A DNA stretch of 64,000 nucleotides from contig NZ_AYMV01000018.1 in NCBI RefSeq assembly GCF_000633415.1, positions 62,001 through 126,000 of the forward strand, read 5' to 3'. The DNA is from Leucobacter sp. PH1c (GTDB lineage Bacteria > Actinomycetota > Actinomycetes > Actinomycetales > Microbacteriaceae). The notes under the pieces are model-generated. The model did no database searches and was not told where the DNA came from. It worked only from the letters and a program-made list of their open reading frames with translations. A program made the position numbers and the translations under genes. Positions 12,587-53,673 of this stretch are shown here, piece by piece. Within the stretch, counting starts at the first letter, position 1. Each line of letters opens with the position of its first letter.

Positions 12587-12652
12587 GCAGGAGAAATCGC
12601 GTATCTCGGAGATTTCGCTGGGGCAGGCTCCGAGATTCCGGATTTCTCCTGC
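12587..12652. repeat. dispersed 65-bp imperfect palindrome, copy A
   Basis: Arms at 12587-12611 and 12628-12652 match as an inverted repeat in 22 of 25 positions around a 16-base loop. The left arm contains GGAGAAATCGCGTATCTCGG. The same palindrome recurs at 39841-39904 (left arms 21 of 22 identical). It lies between convergent trpB and the symporter gene and encodes nothing recognisable. Confidence 0.85.
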
Positions 12653-12654
12653 TG

Positions 12655-12813
12655 AATCGGAGGCGCGGCCGAGACACCTCACTCAGGACCCGCCAACTCG
12701 GAGCCGCAGCCGAGACACCTCACTCAGGACCCGCCAAATCGGAGGCGCGGCCGAGACACCGCACTCAGGACCCGCTAACTCGGAGGCGCGGCCGAGACAC
12801 CGCACCCCACACC
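12655..12813. repeat. 41-bp tandem repeat, about 3.9 copies
   Basis: Units at 12655-12694, 12695-12735, 12736-12776 and a truncated one at 12777-12813, each starting AA(T/C)TCGGAG and containing CCGAGACACC(T/G)CACTCAGG. Each unit holds a small internal inverted repeat (CTCGG...CCGAG). Together with copy A of the palindrome it fills the 325-bp gap between trpB and the symporter; I see no gene there. Confidence 0.92.
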
Positions 12814-36840: not shown

Positions 36841-38208
36841 CTAGCGGAAGACCGGCGCCTCCGTCGACGAGACATCGATGTGCGTGACCTCGCGGTCGCC
36901 GAGCGAGGCCAGCATCGTGCTCAGCACCGCCGCCTTCCGCCGCGACTGCTCAGCGTCGCCCCACATCACTTCGATGCCGCTCGCGAGCGTGAACGTCACG
37001 TCCTGCCCGCTCGACGCCGTCACGGCCGTGATCTGGGCGCGCAGCTCCGCGGGCATATCGCGCAGCGCACGCGTCGCTGAGCGGTACGCCTGCGAGGCGC
37101 GATCCGTGAGCGCCCCGCTGCCGAGCGGCACGCCGGCCGGCGCCTGCTCGGCGGTGCCGAGGAGCACGCCGGCCGCGTCGTACAGCGCGACCCCGTCGCC
37201 CTCCGGCAGCGAGACCACGGGCACGCGCTCTTCGATCCGGATCGTGAGCGTGTGCGGCGGAATCCGCTCCACCGCGTAGCGCTGGATCAGCGGGAAGGGC
37301 TCGAGCGCCCGGTGCACGTCGGCGTCGTCGACGAGCGCGAGCGGCACGCCGTCGAAGCGGGCGAGCGCCGCGCGCACCTCATCCTCGGGGACCGTCGTCG
37401 CGCCGACGAGCTGGATCTCGCGCACCGCCATGAGCGGGGTGAACACGCCCGCGGCGACGAAGAGGGCGAGCCCGCCGACCGCGGAGAGCACGACCAGCCA
37501 GATCCGCCTGCGACGCCGCGCGGCCACCGTGAAGCGCTGGCGCTCGCGGCGCAGCTGGGCCTTGCGCTGCCGCTCGGCGGCGCGCACCCGACGCTCGGCG
37601 GCGCGCACCGGATCGGCCTCGCGGCCGGCTCGCCACTGCGCCAGCACGGATCCGGATCCGGAACCCGATCCGCCGGCGGCAGCGCCGCCCGTGGAGTCAA
37701 GGAGTTCGCCCGCGGATGCACCGTCGGGCGAACCGCTCCCCGGCGCGGGCTCGTGCGCCTCGATGTCCAGGTCGTCGTAGGCCTCGGTCGCGAGCAGGTC
37801 CTCGTCCCCGCGGGGAGTCGCGGGGTCGACGCCGGCGCCGGCGCGGGACGCGCGGACGGCGGACAGGTCGACGGTCGCCGCCTCCGCCGCCTCGGGAGCG
37901 GCGGTTGCGGGAGGCGCGGTCGCGGGAGGCGCCGCCTCGGCACGCGCGGCCGCCGATCCCGAGCGCTCGCCCGGGAGGCCCGAGCGAAGTCGGTCGAGCA
38001 CGCTGCGCCGGGGCGCTGCGCGCTGCTGGGCGGGCTCACTGGCTGCAGCACCGTCGGCCGTCACGTCGGGATCGTGAGGCGTCGACGGGGATCCAGCGCC
38101 GGATCCGGCGGATTCGAGCCCCCCGCTCAGCGGGAGCTGCGGTTCGACCGCGGGCGGGACGGCTTCCGGGCGCTCAGGCGCCCGGTCGAACCCGCTCGGC
38201 CGCTTCAC
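36841..38208 (-). CDS. ftsQ: cell division protein FtsQ
   Basis: Bitopic divisome protein. It is 455 residues, longer than usual because of a 230-residue cytoplasmic N-terminus that is disordered and rich in Pro/Ala/Glu/Ser. A basic stretch (residues about 205-230) leads to one membrane helix ([20 protein letters not shown]), then POTRA domain ([21 protein letters not shown]) and the beta domain with [23 protein letters not shown] at 38208 overlaps the murC stop (GTGA). The long tail could be a regulatory or phosphorylation platform (inference). Confidence 0.94.
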
Positions 38209-39629
38209 TGCTCGGTGACCTCGAAGCGACCGCGCAGCGCAGCGACGACCTGCGGGATGATCTGGTAGACGGTGCCGCAGCTCATCGTGACCATGACGTC
38301 CCCCGGGCGGGCGATCTCCGCGAGGTACTCGGCCGCGCGGGCCCAGTCGTCGATGTAGGCGACCTTGCTCGCGTCGGCGAAGTCGTTCGACACGAGCGCG
38401 CCGGTCACGCCCTCGACCGGATCCTCGCGGGCGCCGTCGACCGAGAGCACGACGGTGTGATCCGCCCCGGCCTCGAGCACCTCGGCGAACTCCCGGTGGA
38501 AGAGTCTCGTGCGGCTGAACAGGTGCGGCTGGTGGATCGCCACGAGGCGCCCCTCGCCCACGACGGCGCGCGCCGAGTCGAGCAGGGCCGCCACCTCGGT
38601 CGGGTGGTGCGCGTAGTCGTCGTACACGCGCACGCCGCCCACCTCGGCGTGGAACTCGAAGCGGCGCTTCGTGCCGCCGAACTCGGAAATCGCGGCGAGC
38701 GCCGCGGCGGGCTCGAAGCCGAGACCCGTGAGAACTGAGAGCGCACCCACCGCGTTCACCGCGTTGTGGCGCCCGTACACGGCGAGCTGGGCGCTGTACT
38801 CGGCACCGTCGATGGCGACCGTGAAGCGAACGGGCCCCGAATCGTCGATCGCGGTGATCCGCACGTCCGCGTCGGCGGCCTCCCCGAAGGTGCGGATGGG
38901 GGCGTGCGCCGCCGCGTCCGCGCGCAGGGCGCCGAGCACCTCGAGCGCGCCGGGGTCGTCGGAGGAGATCACGATCTGCTCGCGGGCGCCGCGGGCGAAG
39001 TCGACGAAGGCCTGCATGAACGCCTCGCGTGAGCCGTAGAAGTCGAGGTGCTCGGGGTCCACGTTCGTGATGAGCGCGATCGCCGTGTCGTAGAGGAGGA
39101 ACGATTTGTCCGACTCGTCGGCCTCGATCACGAAGAGATCGTCCGTGCCGGGACCCGAGCTCACGCCGAGCGATTCGATGATGCCGCCGTTCACGAACGA
39201 GGGATCCGCGCCCGCACCGAGCAGGCCGGTCACGATCATCCCCGTCGAGGTGGTCTTGCCGTGCGCACCCGCGACCGAGACGACGCGCTTGCCCCGCGCG
39301 AGCCAGGCGAGCGCCTGCGAGCGGTGCAGCACGGGCATGTCCGTGGCGAGGGCCCGCTGGTACTCGGGGTTGTCCTGCCAGAGCGCTCCGGTGACGACGA
39401 GAGTGTCGGCGTCTCCGACGTTGGCGGCGTCATGCCCGATGAACACGGGGATCCCGATTTCCTCGAGCGCTGCGGTCGAGTAGTTCGCGCTGCGGTCGGA
39501 CCCCGTAACCGTGACACCCGCCTGGTGCATCATCCGCGCGATCCCGCTCATGCCGGAACCGCCGATGCCGACGAAGTGGACCTTTCCGAGCTCATCGGGG
39601 ATGGTCAGTTCGAGATCGGGGTAGATCAT
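38205..39629 (-). CDS. murC: UDP-N-acetylmuramate ligase MurC
   Basis: Adds the first amino acid to UDP-MurNAc; cytosolic. It is 474 residues. N-terminal [22 protein letters not shown] (Rossmann, quoted in part), ATP loop [10 protein letters not shown], then [11 protein letters not shown] and [13 protein letters not shown] at 39629 follows AGGAGGATCC, so a long in-frame extension to 40967 is not part of the gene. A 389-bp repeat-filled gap and an MFS gene separate it from murG, unusual for the dcw cluster. Confidence 0.97.
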
Positions 39630-39783
39630 GGATCCTCCTAGCGGGTCGACAGTCAAGCGTACCGCGCGGACCCTGCGGGGCGCCCGGTCGCGTGCGGCGC
39701 GGCGCGCGGTGTGCTCGGGACTCGCTGGTCGACTCTGCCTCGAGCCTTGGATCCCGCGGGTCGCCGCTCCGCGCCTCCGGCCG

Positions 39784-39839
39784 CTCGGCTCGCCGTCCGC
39801 GCCTCCGATCTCTCGGCTCGCCGTCCGCGCCTCAGAACT
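39784..39839. repeat. 28-bp tandem repeat, two copies
   Basis: CTCGGCTCGCCGTCCGCGCC plus TC and six variable bases, at 39784-39811 and 39812-39839, directly abutting copy B of the dispersed palindrome. A related string occurs in reverse orientation beside copy A (CGGAGGCGCGG). Confidence 0.85.
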
Positions 39840-39840
39840 C

Positions 39841-39904
39841 TCGGAGAAATCGCGGATCTCGGAGCGAAACCCGCGAAAACGTCCGAGATTCGAGATTTCT
39901 CCGA
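39841..39904. repeat. dispersed 65-bp imperfect palindrome, copy B
   Basis: Arms at 39841-39863 and 39882-39904 pair at 21 of 23 positions. The left arm contains GGAGAAATCGCGGATCTCGG, one base different from copy A at 12587-12652. It lies in the murC-MFS gap, where no gene is visible. Confidence 0.85.
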
Positions 39905-39983
39905 GGAAAGCGGTGCGTGTGGGGGCCGGGCGCGGGGCGCACGGACCACCCGAGCCGTTGCCGCCCTCGCGACGCAGATCGGC

Positions 39984-40028
39984 TCGACTCTGATCCGGTA
40001 TCGACCCCGGATACCGGATCAGAGTCGA
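39984..40028. terminator. perfect 19-bp inverted repeat at the MFS 3' end
   Basis: TCGACTCTGATCCGGTATC (39984-40002), 7-base loop, and its exact complement (40010-40028). The MFS stop codon (40019-40021) lies inside the right arm. It can act as a transcription terminator on the minus strand, although no U-tract follows; its length and low GC relative to the surroundings also fit a mobile palindromic element. Confidence 0.75.
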
Positions 40029-41401
40029 TGCGATGTTCTGCGAGATGCGGGCGGCGCGAGCGACCCCGAGCCGGACGGTGCAGACGGCGCGGACGGTGCA
40101 GGCGGCTCTGCCGGGGCGCGCTCCGCCGAAGGCGGGGGGACCACCGGGACCGCAAGCGCCGGGGCCAGCGCCACGAGGGCGAGCGTGGCGGGGATCCCGA
40201 ACAGGCCGATCGCCGCGCCCACGACCGGGCCCACCGCCGCAGCCGCGAGGAACTGCCCCGTGTTCTGGATGCCGAGCGCCCGGCCCGCCCAGGACGGCCC
40301 CGCGAGTTCGGCGACGGCGGTGAATGCCAGCCCGTTGTCGGCCACGCTCACGCAGCACGCGATCACGTAGGCCACGGCCGCCGGGATGCCCCACTCGAGC
40401 CACCCGCACGCGGCCGCGGTGAGCAGCGTGACGATGCCCGCGATGGCCACGATGCGGAGGGGGCGGAGGCGCGAGCCCGCGCGATCGCTCCACACCCCGA
40501 CGAGGATGCGCCCCGCGGCCCCGGCGAACTGCGCGCCCGCCACGAGCGCGCCAGCGGCGAGTGCGCTCCAGCCGAAGCCGACCGTGAACCAGACGAGCCC
40601 GAACGTCGACAGCGCGAACTGCGGAACGACGAGCAGCACGGAGGCCGCGTGGATGCGGAGCAGGGTCGCGGAGCCGCGATAGGGGGTGCTGGGGCGCGCG
40701 GGGGCGGCCGCCACCCCGGTCCCGGACGGTGAGCCCGAGCCGGATCCCGCTCCCCGCGCCGGGCGCGGAGCGCGCTCCGGGTCGCGCACCACGGCGACAA
40801 CCGCGACGAGGCTCACGAGCACGAGCACGCCACCGAGCGCGAGCGCCGCACCCATGCCGAAGCCCGCGGCGAGGGGCGGCACGCCGAGCGCCGCCACCGC
40901 CATGCCGAGCGGCTGACAGGTCTGCCGGATCCCCATGGCGAGCCCGCGCCGCTCCGCGGGGAACCACCCCGTGATCAGTCGCCCGCTGGCGCTGTTCGTG
41001 CAGGCGGAGGCCGCGCCGCAGGCGACGAGCGCGATCCCAAGCGGGAGGAGCGCAGCGATGCCGGCCGAGCCGGCATCAGCACCGGCACCAGCACCAGCCC
41101 CGGGGCCGCCGCCCACGACCGCCGCAGCCATCGCCGCGGCGACCGTGAGCACCGTCGCCGCGAGGCCGATGATGAGCACGCGCCGCTCCCCGAAGCGGTC
41201 GGTCGCCGCGCCCCAGAGGACGAGGGCCGCGACGAGCCCGAGGTTCGGGGCACCCGCGAGGAAGCCTGCCTCGGCGAGGCTCAGCCCCGCGGCGTGCAGG
41301 TGCGGGATGAGGAAGGCGGGCGCCGCCGCGACGACGGTGGTCGCCGCCTGGGCGACGACCATTACGGCGAGCATGATCCAGAGGCGGGCGGGGACGTGCA
41401 T
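40019..41401 (-). CDS. major facilitator superfamily transporter inserted in the dcw cluster
   Basis: 460 residues, 12 predicted helices with the usual central cytoplasmic loop (about 205-245, Gly/Pro/Ser/Ala rich). Helix 2-3 loop [13 protein letters not shown] matches the MFS motif GxxxDRxGRR. A Gly/Ala repeat loop ([16 protein letters not shown]) lies between helices 3 and 4, and a Pro/Ser/Ala tail follows the last helix. ATG at 41401 lies 118 bases downstream of murG. Substrate unknown. Not a normal dcw member; repeats and hairpins on its murC side suggest insertion. Confidence 0.9.
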
Positions 41402-41519
41402 GCGGAAACTCCAGACGAGGGTCGGAGACCGGCAGGACGCTGCCGCCGCGGACGGGGAGCCGGTCGGCTCAGACCCCGCCGCGGCTCCGAAGGAGGAGCA
41501 TCACGCGCATGAGACGAGC

Positions 41520-42605
41520 TTAGCGGGTCGGAGCCGCCGCGACGGCCTCGTGCACAAGGGCGAGCAGCCGCTCGGTGCCGTCGAGGCTGCCGGCGCTCCG
41601 GGCACGCTCCCCCATGTCGGCGAGACGCGCGTCGTCCGCGAGGAGCGGGAGCAGGGTGCCGCGCACCCACTCGGGCGTCAGTTCGGCGTCCTCGACGAGC
41701 AGCGCGCCACCCGCGGAGACGACGCCGGCCGCGTTGAAGCGCTGCTCGCCGTTGCCGACGGCGTAGGGCACGAAGACGGCGGGGACGCCGAGGCCGGCGA
41801 GCTCGCTCACGGTCGTCGAGCCGGCGCGGGAGACGGCGAGGTCGCACGCCGCGAACGCGAGGTCCATGCGGTCGCAGTACGGGATCACGTGGTATCCGTC
41901 GACACCGGGATCCTCGATCTCGGTGAGTCCGCCCCAGACGTGCAGCACCTGCACGCCCGCGGCGACGATCTCGGCAGCCGAGCCGGAGATGCCGCGATTG
42001 ATCGCGCGGGCGCCGAGCGATCCGCCCGTGACGAGCAGCGTGCGCCGCGCGGGATCGAGGCCGAAGTGCGCGCGCGCCGAGGCGCGCAGGGCGGGTCGGT
42101 CGAGCCCGGTGATCTCGGGGCGGAGGGGCATGCCGGTCACGCGGGCGTTCGGGATCGGCGTGCCCGCGAAGGTGACGCCGACGTAGGGGGTACGGCGGGC
42201 GCCCATGCGGTTCGCCATGCCGGGGCGCGCGTTCGCCTCGTGGATCACGACGGGCACCTGCTCCTTCGCGCCGGCGCGGTACGCGGGCGCTGCGGCGTAG
42301 CCGCCGAAGCCGACGACCACGTCGATGCGGCGGGCGCGGATCAGCTCGCGCACCTCGCGCACGGCGCGGGCGAAGCGCGCGGGGAACTGCAGCGCGGCGA
42401 GGTTCGGCCGGCGCGGGAACGGCAGGCGTGCGATCGTGACGAGCTCGTAGCCGCGCTCGGGCACGAGGCGGGCCTCGAGCCCCTCCTTCGTTCCGAGCAC
42501 CACGATCTCCGCGTCGGGCTCCGTGCCGCGGATCAGGTCGGCGAGCGCGAGCAGCGGGTTCACGTGGCCGGCGGTGCCGCCTCCGGCGAGCAGGTAGCGG
42601 GTCAT
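41520..42605 (-). CDS. murG: undecaprenyldiphospho-muramoylpentapeptide GlcNAc transferase MurG
   Basis: Transfers GlcNAc to lipid I to make lipid II on the inner membrane face. It is 361 residues. Motifs GGGTAGHVNPLLALAD at the N-terminus, GFGGYAAAPAYRAGAKEQVPVVIHEANARPG (in part), VTGGSLGAR and SRAGSTTVSELAGLG. ATG at 42605 overlaps the ftsW stop as ATGA. Last gene of the uninterrupted mraZ-murG run. Confidence 0.97.
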   Translation of the reverse strand: MTRYLLAGGGTAGHVNPLLALADLIRGTEPDAEIVVLGTKEGLEARLVPERGYELVTIARLPFPRRPNLAALQFPARFARAVREVRELIRARRIDVVVGFGGYAAAPAYRAGAKEQVPVVIHEANARPGMANRMGARRTPYVGVTFAGTPIPNARVTGMPLRPEITGLDRPALRASARAHFGLDPARRTLLVTGGSLGARAINRGISGSAAEIVAAGVQVLHVWGGLTEIEDPGVDGYHVIPYCDRMDLAFAACDLAVSRAGSTTVSELAGLGVPAVFVPYAVGNGEQRFNAAGVVSAGGALLVEDAELTPEWVRGTLLPLLADDARLADMGERARSAGSLDGTERLLALVHEAVAAAPTR

Positions 42606-53600: not shown

Positions 53601-53665
53601 CGCTCAGGCGCTCAGGCGCTCAGGCGCGGCGAGCGTGCGCGGCGAGCGTGCGCGGCGAGCGTGCG
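53601..53665. repeat. 8-bp and 13-bp tandem repeats
   Basis: CGCTCAGG three times (53601-53624), then CGGCGAGCGTGCG three times (53627-53665). Together with the terminator at 53674 and the MraZ boxes they account for the 466-bp gap between mraZ and the DUF3040 gene; no gene is visible in it. Confidence 0.92.
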
Positions 53666-53673
53666 CGGGCACG

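Follow-up and report, generated by a model that had tools for sequence, protein, structure and literature searches.

How did a transporter gene come to lie between murG and murC, and did the repeats beside it arrive with it? The window, the whole 64-kb stretch of DNA analyzed here, comes from a Leucobacter genome of 3.12 Mb that is 99.9% complete. It carries part of the division and cell wall (dcw) cluster, in which the order murD-ftsW-murG-murC-ftsQ-ftsZ is intact around a single inserted gene. The initial annotation described this gene as a transporter followed, on its murC side, by a 28-bp tandem repeat, a dispersed palindrome, and a perfect 19-bp inverted repeat around the transporter's stop codon. 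Both the gene and the three repeats are found where it had placed them (Table 1).

Table 1. Positions of genes, putative signals, and repeats in the window
Feature	Position	Strand	Remarks
murG	41520-42605	-	Upstream neighbor of transporter; Pfam GT28 domains; best NCBIfam match TIGR01133, E 3.8e-68
MFS transporter gene	40019-41401	-	Intact ORF, 460 aa; PF07690 (MFS_1), E 2.4e-34
Perfect 19-bp inverted repeat, 7-nt loop	39984-40028 (arms 39984-40002 and 40010-40028)	-	Candidate 3'-end hairpin
Palindrome copy, 66 bp	39840-39905		Arms of 24 nt, 92% complementary, 18 nt apart
28-bp tandem array	39757-39844		TRF period 28, 3.1 copies, score 118
-10-like element GGTACGCT	39656-39663	-	Upstream of murC; conserved in relatives with and without transporter
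murC ribosome-binding site AGGAGG	39634-39639	-	Read from sequence; similar motif upstream of murC in relatives
murC	38205-39629	-	TIGR01082, 409 bits, E 2.4e-122, above cut-off; start codon 39627-39629
Second window palindrome	12587-12652		Family member; copy at orthologous place in G008
41-bp tandem array	12657-12805		Abuts second palindrome; TRF score 256, 3.6 copies

The transporter at the murG-murC junction

The encoded protein belongs to the Major Facilitator Superfamily (PF07690, 119.3 bits; cut-off, 33.4). NCBIfam subfamilies gave weak matches alone, far below cut-off, and no PDB sequence matched at E 0.01. Gene neighborhoods of the homologues are mixed in the nine loci compared, with none pointing to a substrate. 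Upstream, murG scores 230 bits against TIGR01133, slightly below the cut-off of 250.

At E 0.001 the transporter is matched in 34 of 54 Leucobacter genomes (the window's own included) and murC in 53 of 54. In 24 genomes the homologue lies upstream of murC, on the same strand and within 2.3 kb; adding G046, whose contig ends after murG and the transporter, brings the junction genomes to 25 of 54, own included. Seven further genomes carry a diverged copy elsewhere and 20 have no match, while two marginal matches (G033 and G040) are counted neither at the junction nor elsewhere. The 25 junction genes form one clade (support 100/98), separate from the elsewhere copies in the genus; one homologue from another genus (G167) was left out of this tree as too short. 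Homologues outside the genus are common (91 of 299 family genomes at E 1e-60, three of the 91 being Leucobacter), and neither murC nor murG was found in the fetched flanks of 29 loci from other genera. Two of the other-genus homologues (L234:4577-5893 and L237:4567-5877) lie antisense between proB and proA, gene names that we read from the translations.

The transporter is an ordinary inherited neighbor in an unusual place, an old resident of about half the genus. The initial annotation had considered that the gene might be fixed in this lineage, and its presence at the junction as one clade agrees with this. An additional gene separates murG and murC in about half of Leucobacter genomes, whereas murG adjoins murC in congeners without the transporter (e.g., L037 and L039-L043). 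The MurC tree, built without G046 (murC fragment) and G042 (no murC match), does not resolve the backbone, so a single arrival at the junction followed by losses is likely rather than proved. The gene would have entered the junction early in Leucobacter and been inherited there since, other lineages being without it.

Single congeners carry other inserts at the same junction: a DUF2510 protein with a second protein lacking a Pfam match (G053; L034:7206-9721), a LytR_cpsA_psr protein with a cell-wall-anchor-like protein, the anchor being read from its C terminus (G006; L194:4275-6230), and a PIN protein (G052; L186:3417-3782). DUF559 genes occupy the junction in G005, G023, G045, and G049 (one at L230:5556-7097). 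These four form a single clade (support 97/96), making inheritance from one insertion possible, although the G045 copy shares the orientation of murG and the other three have the opposite one.

With a gene inserted upstream, the initial annotation reasoned, murC would need its own promoter, and a candidate is indeed present. In the 120 nt preceding murC, an element like GGTACGCT is present in 23 of the 24 transporter-bearing genomes and in 17 of the 28 that lack the gene there, against 131 of 10400 shuffled sequences. In species whose transporter overlaps murC, a similar -10-like element lies inside the transporter end (e.g., L006 and L009). A consensus scan of 39300-41700, which tests another consensus than GGTACGCT, returned no sigma-70-type promoter, and a scan of the same interval returned no T-tailed terminator. 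The insert would be tolerated because murC has a promoter-like element of its own.

A dispersed palindrome family

The palindrome beside the transporter has at least 44 dispersed copies in its own genome. A search with 91 bp gave 89 rows over both strands, which reduce to 43 distinct copies, and a covariance model adds one site. Alignment of the 43 copies shows 23 invariant columns around a variable loop. Covariation supports pairing of the arms, with 107 cells changed on both sides versus 79.6 (SD 8.7) after shuffling, and none of 500 shuffles as high. Under a simple gene caller 41 of the 43 copies are intergenic; where both neighbors were called (n = 37), the flanking genes are convergent in 23 cases, tandem in 14, and divergent in none. 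The copy at the junction holds the heptamer CTCGGAG twice in direct orientation (18 nt apart, at positions 1 and 19) and twice inverted.

At E 0.001, and among the candidates scored, the covariance model matches at least 14 of the 54 genomes (the window's own counted); G008 has many copies, and G007, G025, and G045 have fewer. Each window palindrome has a same-place copy in the syntenic 64 kb of G008 but not in that of G007 or G021. Since G007 groups with G008 in both the MFS and the DUF559 tree, either loss or parallel gain must be assumed for these two sites. Compared with the palindrome-free sites of G007 and G021, the flanks are too diverged for a target-site duplication, the mark of new MITE insertions, to be read. 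Palindromes of other sequence are also dispersed: in searches of six whole genomes, the G032 type was found at about 6 sites in G032 and 8 in its sister G016, and the G021 type at about 25 sites in G021 and 8 in its sister G020, with none in the other four genomes in either case (counts approximate, collapsed from search rows).

Dispersed intergenic palindromes of two inverted arms recall the REPIN/RAYT system (RAYT, REP-associated tyrosine transposase; PMC3116915, PMC3733652). The 66-bp palindrome would be a REPIN-like nonautonomous element. The GTAG tag is absent from the 66-bp consensus of the 43 copies. A RAYT was rejected as the palindromes' partner, since the Y1 (HUH) transposase family PF01797 has no match in the 99.9% complete genome; the same family is found in 5 of 14 control genomes. 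Some bacterial palindromic repeat families have no known mobilizing enzyme, CGTC-type repeats being one example according to PMC3733652.

DUF559 genes between palindromes

The genome's only DUF559 match (contig C16, E 0.01 or better) lies between two of these palindromes, at C16:90371-90441 and 91491-91554. The encoded protein belongs to PF04480 (24.9 bits; curated cut-off, 20.6). Similarly, a DUF559 gene of G008 sits between two family palindromes, and the junction DUF559 gene of G045 has nearly identical palindromes, of related sequence, on both sides. At its 3' end, the open frame of the window species' DUF559 gene (L249:1315-2442, minus strand) enters one of the two flanking palindromes, so that the palindrome may encode the tail of the protein.

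DUF559 genes are associated with palindromes across the genus. We surveyed 90 loci, hand-picked rather than random, from 127 matches; about 37 matches were left out, as was a duplicate locus (L281). They gave 89 frames (L302 had no recoverable frame), of which 53 belong to subfamily A and 36 to subfamily B. The left and right 350-bp flanks of each gene were then compared. At a threshold of 40 bits the two flanks match in 20 of 53 subfamily-A genes, leaving 33 of 53 without a match, and in 4 of 36 subfamily-B genes (Fisher p 0.007). None of the 159 mispaired A flanks, 600 random intervals, or 103 shifted frames reaches this threshold. Lowering the threshold to 30 bits gives 32 of 53 for A, 5 of 36 for B, 1 of 159 mispaired, 7 of 600 random, and 0 of 103 shifted. 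Among the 20 flank-matched A genes, a strong hairpin is present on one side or both in 18 and on both in 14, compared with 2 of 300 random pieces; L266 and L280 lack one, L280 being the G008 copy that the family model finds.

The absence of matches among mispaired flanks indicates that, in most of subfamily A, each gene has its own palindrome type. Only 2 of 16 pairs whose proteins are at least 60% alike share a palindrome. A correlation of palindrome similarity with protein distance was not significant (Mantel r 0.097, a value reached in 186 of 2000 permutations). The four subfamily-B genes with matching flanks (L282, L284, L287, and L304) have a GTCACTT-like core common across species, unlike most A genes.

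The palindromes of different genes are alike in design. Among 46 strong-hairpin arms beside A genes, which count both sides of genes and hence are not independent, direct repeats of at least 6 of 7 bases occur in 27, with a spacing of 18 to 19 nt in 25 of the 27; shuffled arms hold one in 125 of 920 cases, 15 of those at 18 to 19 nt. Neither palindrome flanking the window species' own DUF559 gene holds such a repeat. On the protein side, residues E175, D201, D213, and H217 (aligned numbering of the own core) are kept in 98 to 100% of the 53 subfamily-A sequences. We take the DUF559 fold to be Vsr-like, and these positions are presumably catalytic, as in Vsr-like families. With PF04480 above cut-off and E, D, D-G, and H conserved, the proteins resemble Vsr-like PD-(D/E)XK nucleases (Pfam DUF559/MTES_1575), differing in that the Leucobacter genes are associated with dispersed palindromes.

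Their N termini bear a weak similarity to AbiEi antitoxins of type IV toxin-antitoxin systems. In relatives, the N-terminal Pfam matches AbiEi_4 and AbiEi_3_N fall below their curated cut-offs, which does not support AbiE membership, and the C terminus, unlike AbiEi, is a DUF559 nuclease domain. The window species' own protein has no Pfam AbiEi match and one PADLOC AbiEi match (E 0.0014); across the DUF559 N termini such PADLOC matches are weak, with E 3.5e-05 at best. According to PMC7319586, AbiEi recognizes a pair of 23-bp inverted repeats in its promoter and Rv2827c four, a repeat length close to that of the palindrome arms (about 25 bp).

The likeness to REPIN/RAYT thus extends from the palindromes to the gene: a flanked gene, a distinct palindrome type per gene, and a gene that is single copy in the own genome, with occasional clusters, all have counterparts there (PMC3116915, PMC3733652). 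The differences are that the flanked gene is a DUF559 nuclease, not a Y1/HUH transposase, and that Leucobacter arms often carry the internal direct repeat of 18 to 19 nt. The partnership of palindrome and nuclease is therefore REPIN/RAYT-like in its apparent working yet fails the defining enzyme test, and it is apparently undescribed; among the matches listed, neither family descriptions nor the literature yielded a description of such a pairing. In the window species, the partner of the palindromes is likely the single DUF559 protein detected. As one joint reading, we consider it probable that a PD-(D/E)XK-type nuclease takes the place of the Y1 transposase as partner of these REPIN/RAYT-like palindromes, and that two unrelated events of different age share the murG-murC junction.

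We infer that the DUF559 protein would bind, nick, and mobilize the palindromes. Its weakly AbiEi-like N terminus would bind the arms of about 25 bp, with their heptamers 18 nt apart, its Vsr-like domain would nick the hairpin or cruciform, and the palindromes would spread through copying or repair of the nicked DNA. A broader form of this proposal stands at even odds: a genus-wide class of palindromes, each type with its own winged helix-turn-helix and Vsr-like (DUF559) nuclease that recognizes four half-sites spaced 18 nt and spreads or maintains them, as a transposase-free analogue of RAYT/REPIN in which iterated borders are cutting scars. A nuclease with a different fold that lies between copies of its own palindrome type, as seen in several Leucobacter lineages, offers a concrete, testable candidate for a mobilizing enzyme, and comparing the two flanks of nuclease genes is a simple way to find more such pairings.

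The same proteins could instead act without mobility, as AbiEi-like regulators that bind inverted repeats at their own gene and at dispersed sites. The weak N-terminal AbiEi matches are consistent with this, as is the binding of inverted repeats by AbiEi and Rv2827c (PMC7319586), to which the Leucobacter arms are similar in length. Operators, however, do not account for matching flanks on both sides of the gene rather than upstream alone, for the complete absence of the 37 intergenic copies from divergent gene pairs, or for a nuclease domain with conserved residues, and we regard a purely regulatory role as unlikely. Less likely still is that the palindromes are intergenic hairpins or terminators kept for a 3'-end function and multiplied by other means, with an indirect link to DUF559. 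Their bias toward 3' ends and their covarying stem would fit such RNAs, but the invariant sequence blocks, the 18- to 19-nt direct repeat common to palindromes of different sequence, and the matching flanks at DUF559 genes, with zero in the three controls, would not. That the nuclease and palindromes form a defense or restriction-like system, with palindromes marking self or decoy sites, is very improbable: a nuclease domain, a weakly AbiEi-like N terminus, and weak PADLOC AbiEi matches suggest it, whereas those matches, with E 3.5e-05 at best, concern the N terminus, and dispersed intergenic copies are, to our knowledge, not typical of restriction.

Relative age of the transporter and its repeats

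The relatives allow the transporter and the adjoining repeats to be dated against each other. Of the repeats, the 19-bp inverted repeat takes in the transporter's stop codon (40019-40021) in one arm and folds stably (-41.5 kcal/mol, z -6.6; 0 of 200 shuffles equal). The hairpin has no T-run, and the own-genome stretches checked hold no second exact copy. The unit of the 28-bp array contains the outer border of the palindrome, CGCCTCCGATCTCTCGG, and its last copy runs into the palindrome. The 28-bp unit was also considered as a dispersed element and rejected: among the 40 of 99 candidates scored there is no close second copy in the genome, the best other match (111-bp query) being 77% over 58 bases, E 8.4e-5.

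The transporter-murC gap could be compared in 23 relatives (that of G046 is unreadable). One of them, G008, has the window's palindrome family there, and none has the 28-bp unit (best 21.1 bits versus 51.8 in the window). Some other tandem array with a period of at least 10 is present in 5 of the 23 gaps. Because almost none of the relatives has the window's repeats, the transporter is older than they are. The repeats are a separate, younger layer that belongs to another genetic system; the palindrome would have reached the downstream side of the transporter at a later time, in the line leading to the window species and G008. At this locus an old, inherited gene can be told apart from young repeats that merely resemble its carrier. 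Among the individual gaps, that of G049 (L015) has a palindrome of another sequence and that of G023 (L008) an 11-bp tandem array of about 6 copies.

These comparisons bear on the suggestion of the initial annotation that the transporter was the cargo of a mobile event, having come together with the repeats. It had held that relatives all carrying the transporter without the repeats would contradict this, and that is nearly the pattern found. The repeats do adjoin the transporter on the murC side, and the junction takes other inserts in congeners, but with a junction gene shared by 25 of 54 genomes as one clade, its repeats missing from nearly all of them, and no matching repeat noticed on the murG side, a joint arrival has very little probability.

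The tandem arrays form a further layer. They abut 23 of the 43 palindromes, whereas 30 shuffled sets average 0.4 and reach 2 at most, and their units differ from one palindrome to another; arrays also occur in 4 of 23 palindrome-free gaps. The orthologous gaps of G008, G007, and G021 lack the 41-bp array of the second window palindrome, and neither of the window's two arrays is found in any of these genomes. Judged by this comparison, the arrays are younger than the palindromes they touch at both window sites. As to their origin, we infer that slippage at the same place as nicking would iterate the palindrome border into local tandem repeats, and the pairing with a nuclease offers a cause for tandem repeats that abut palindromes. 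Elsewhere in the window, at 53601-53668, two perfect short tandem arrays with units of 8 bp and 13 bp adjoin each other.
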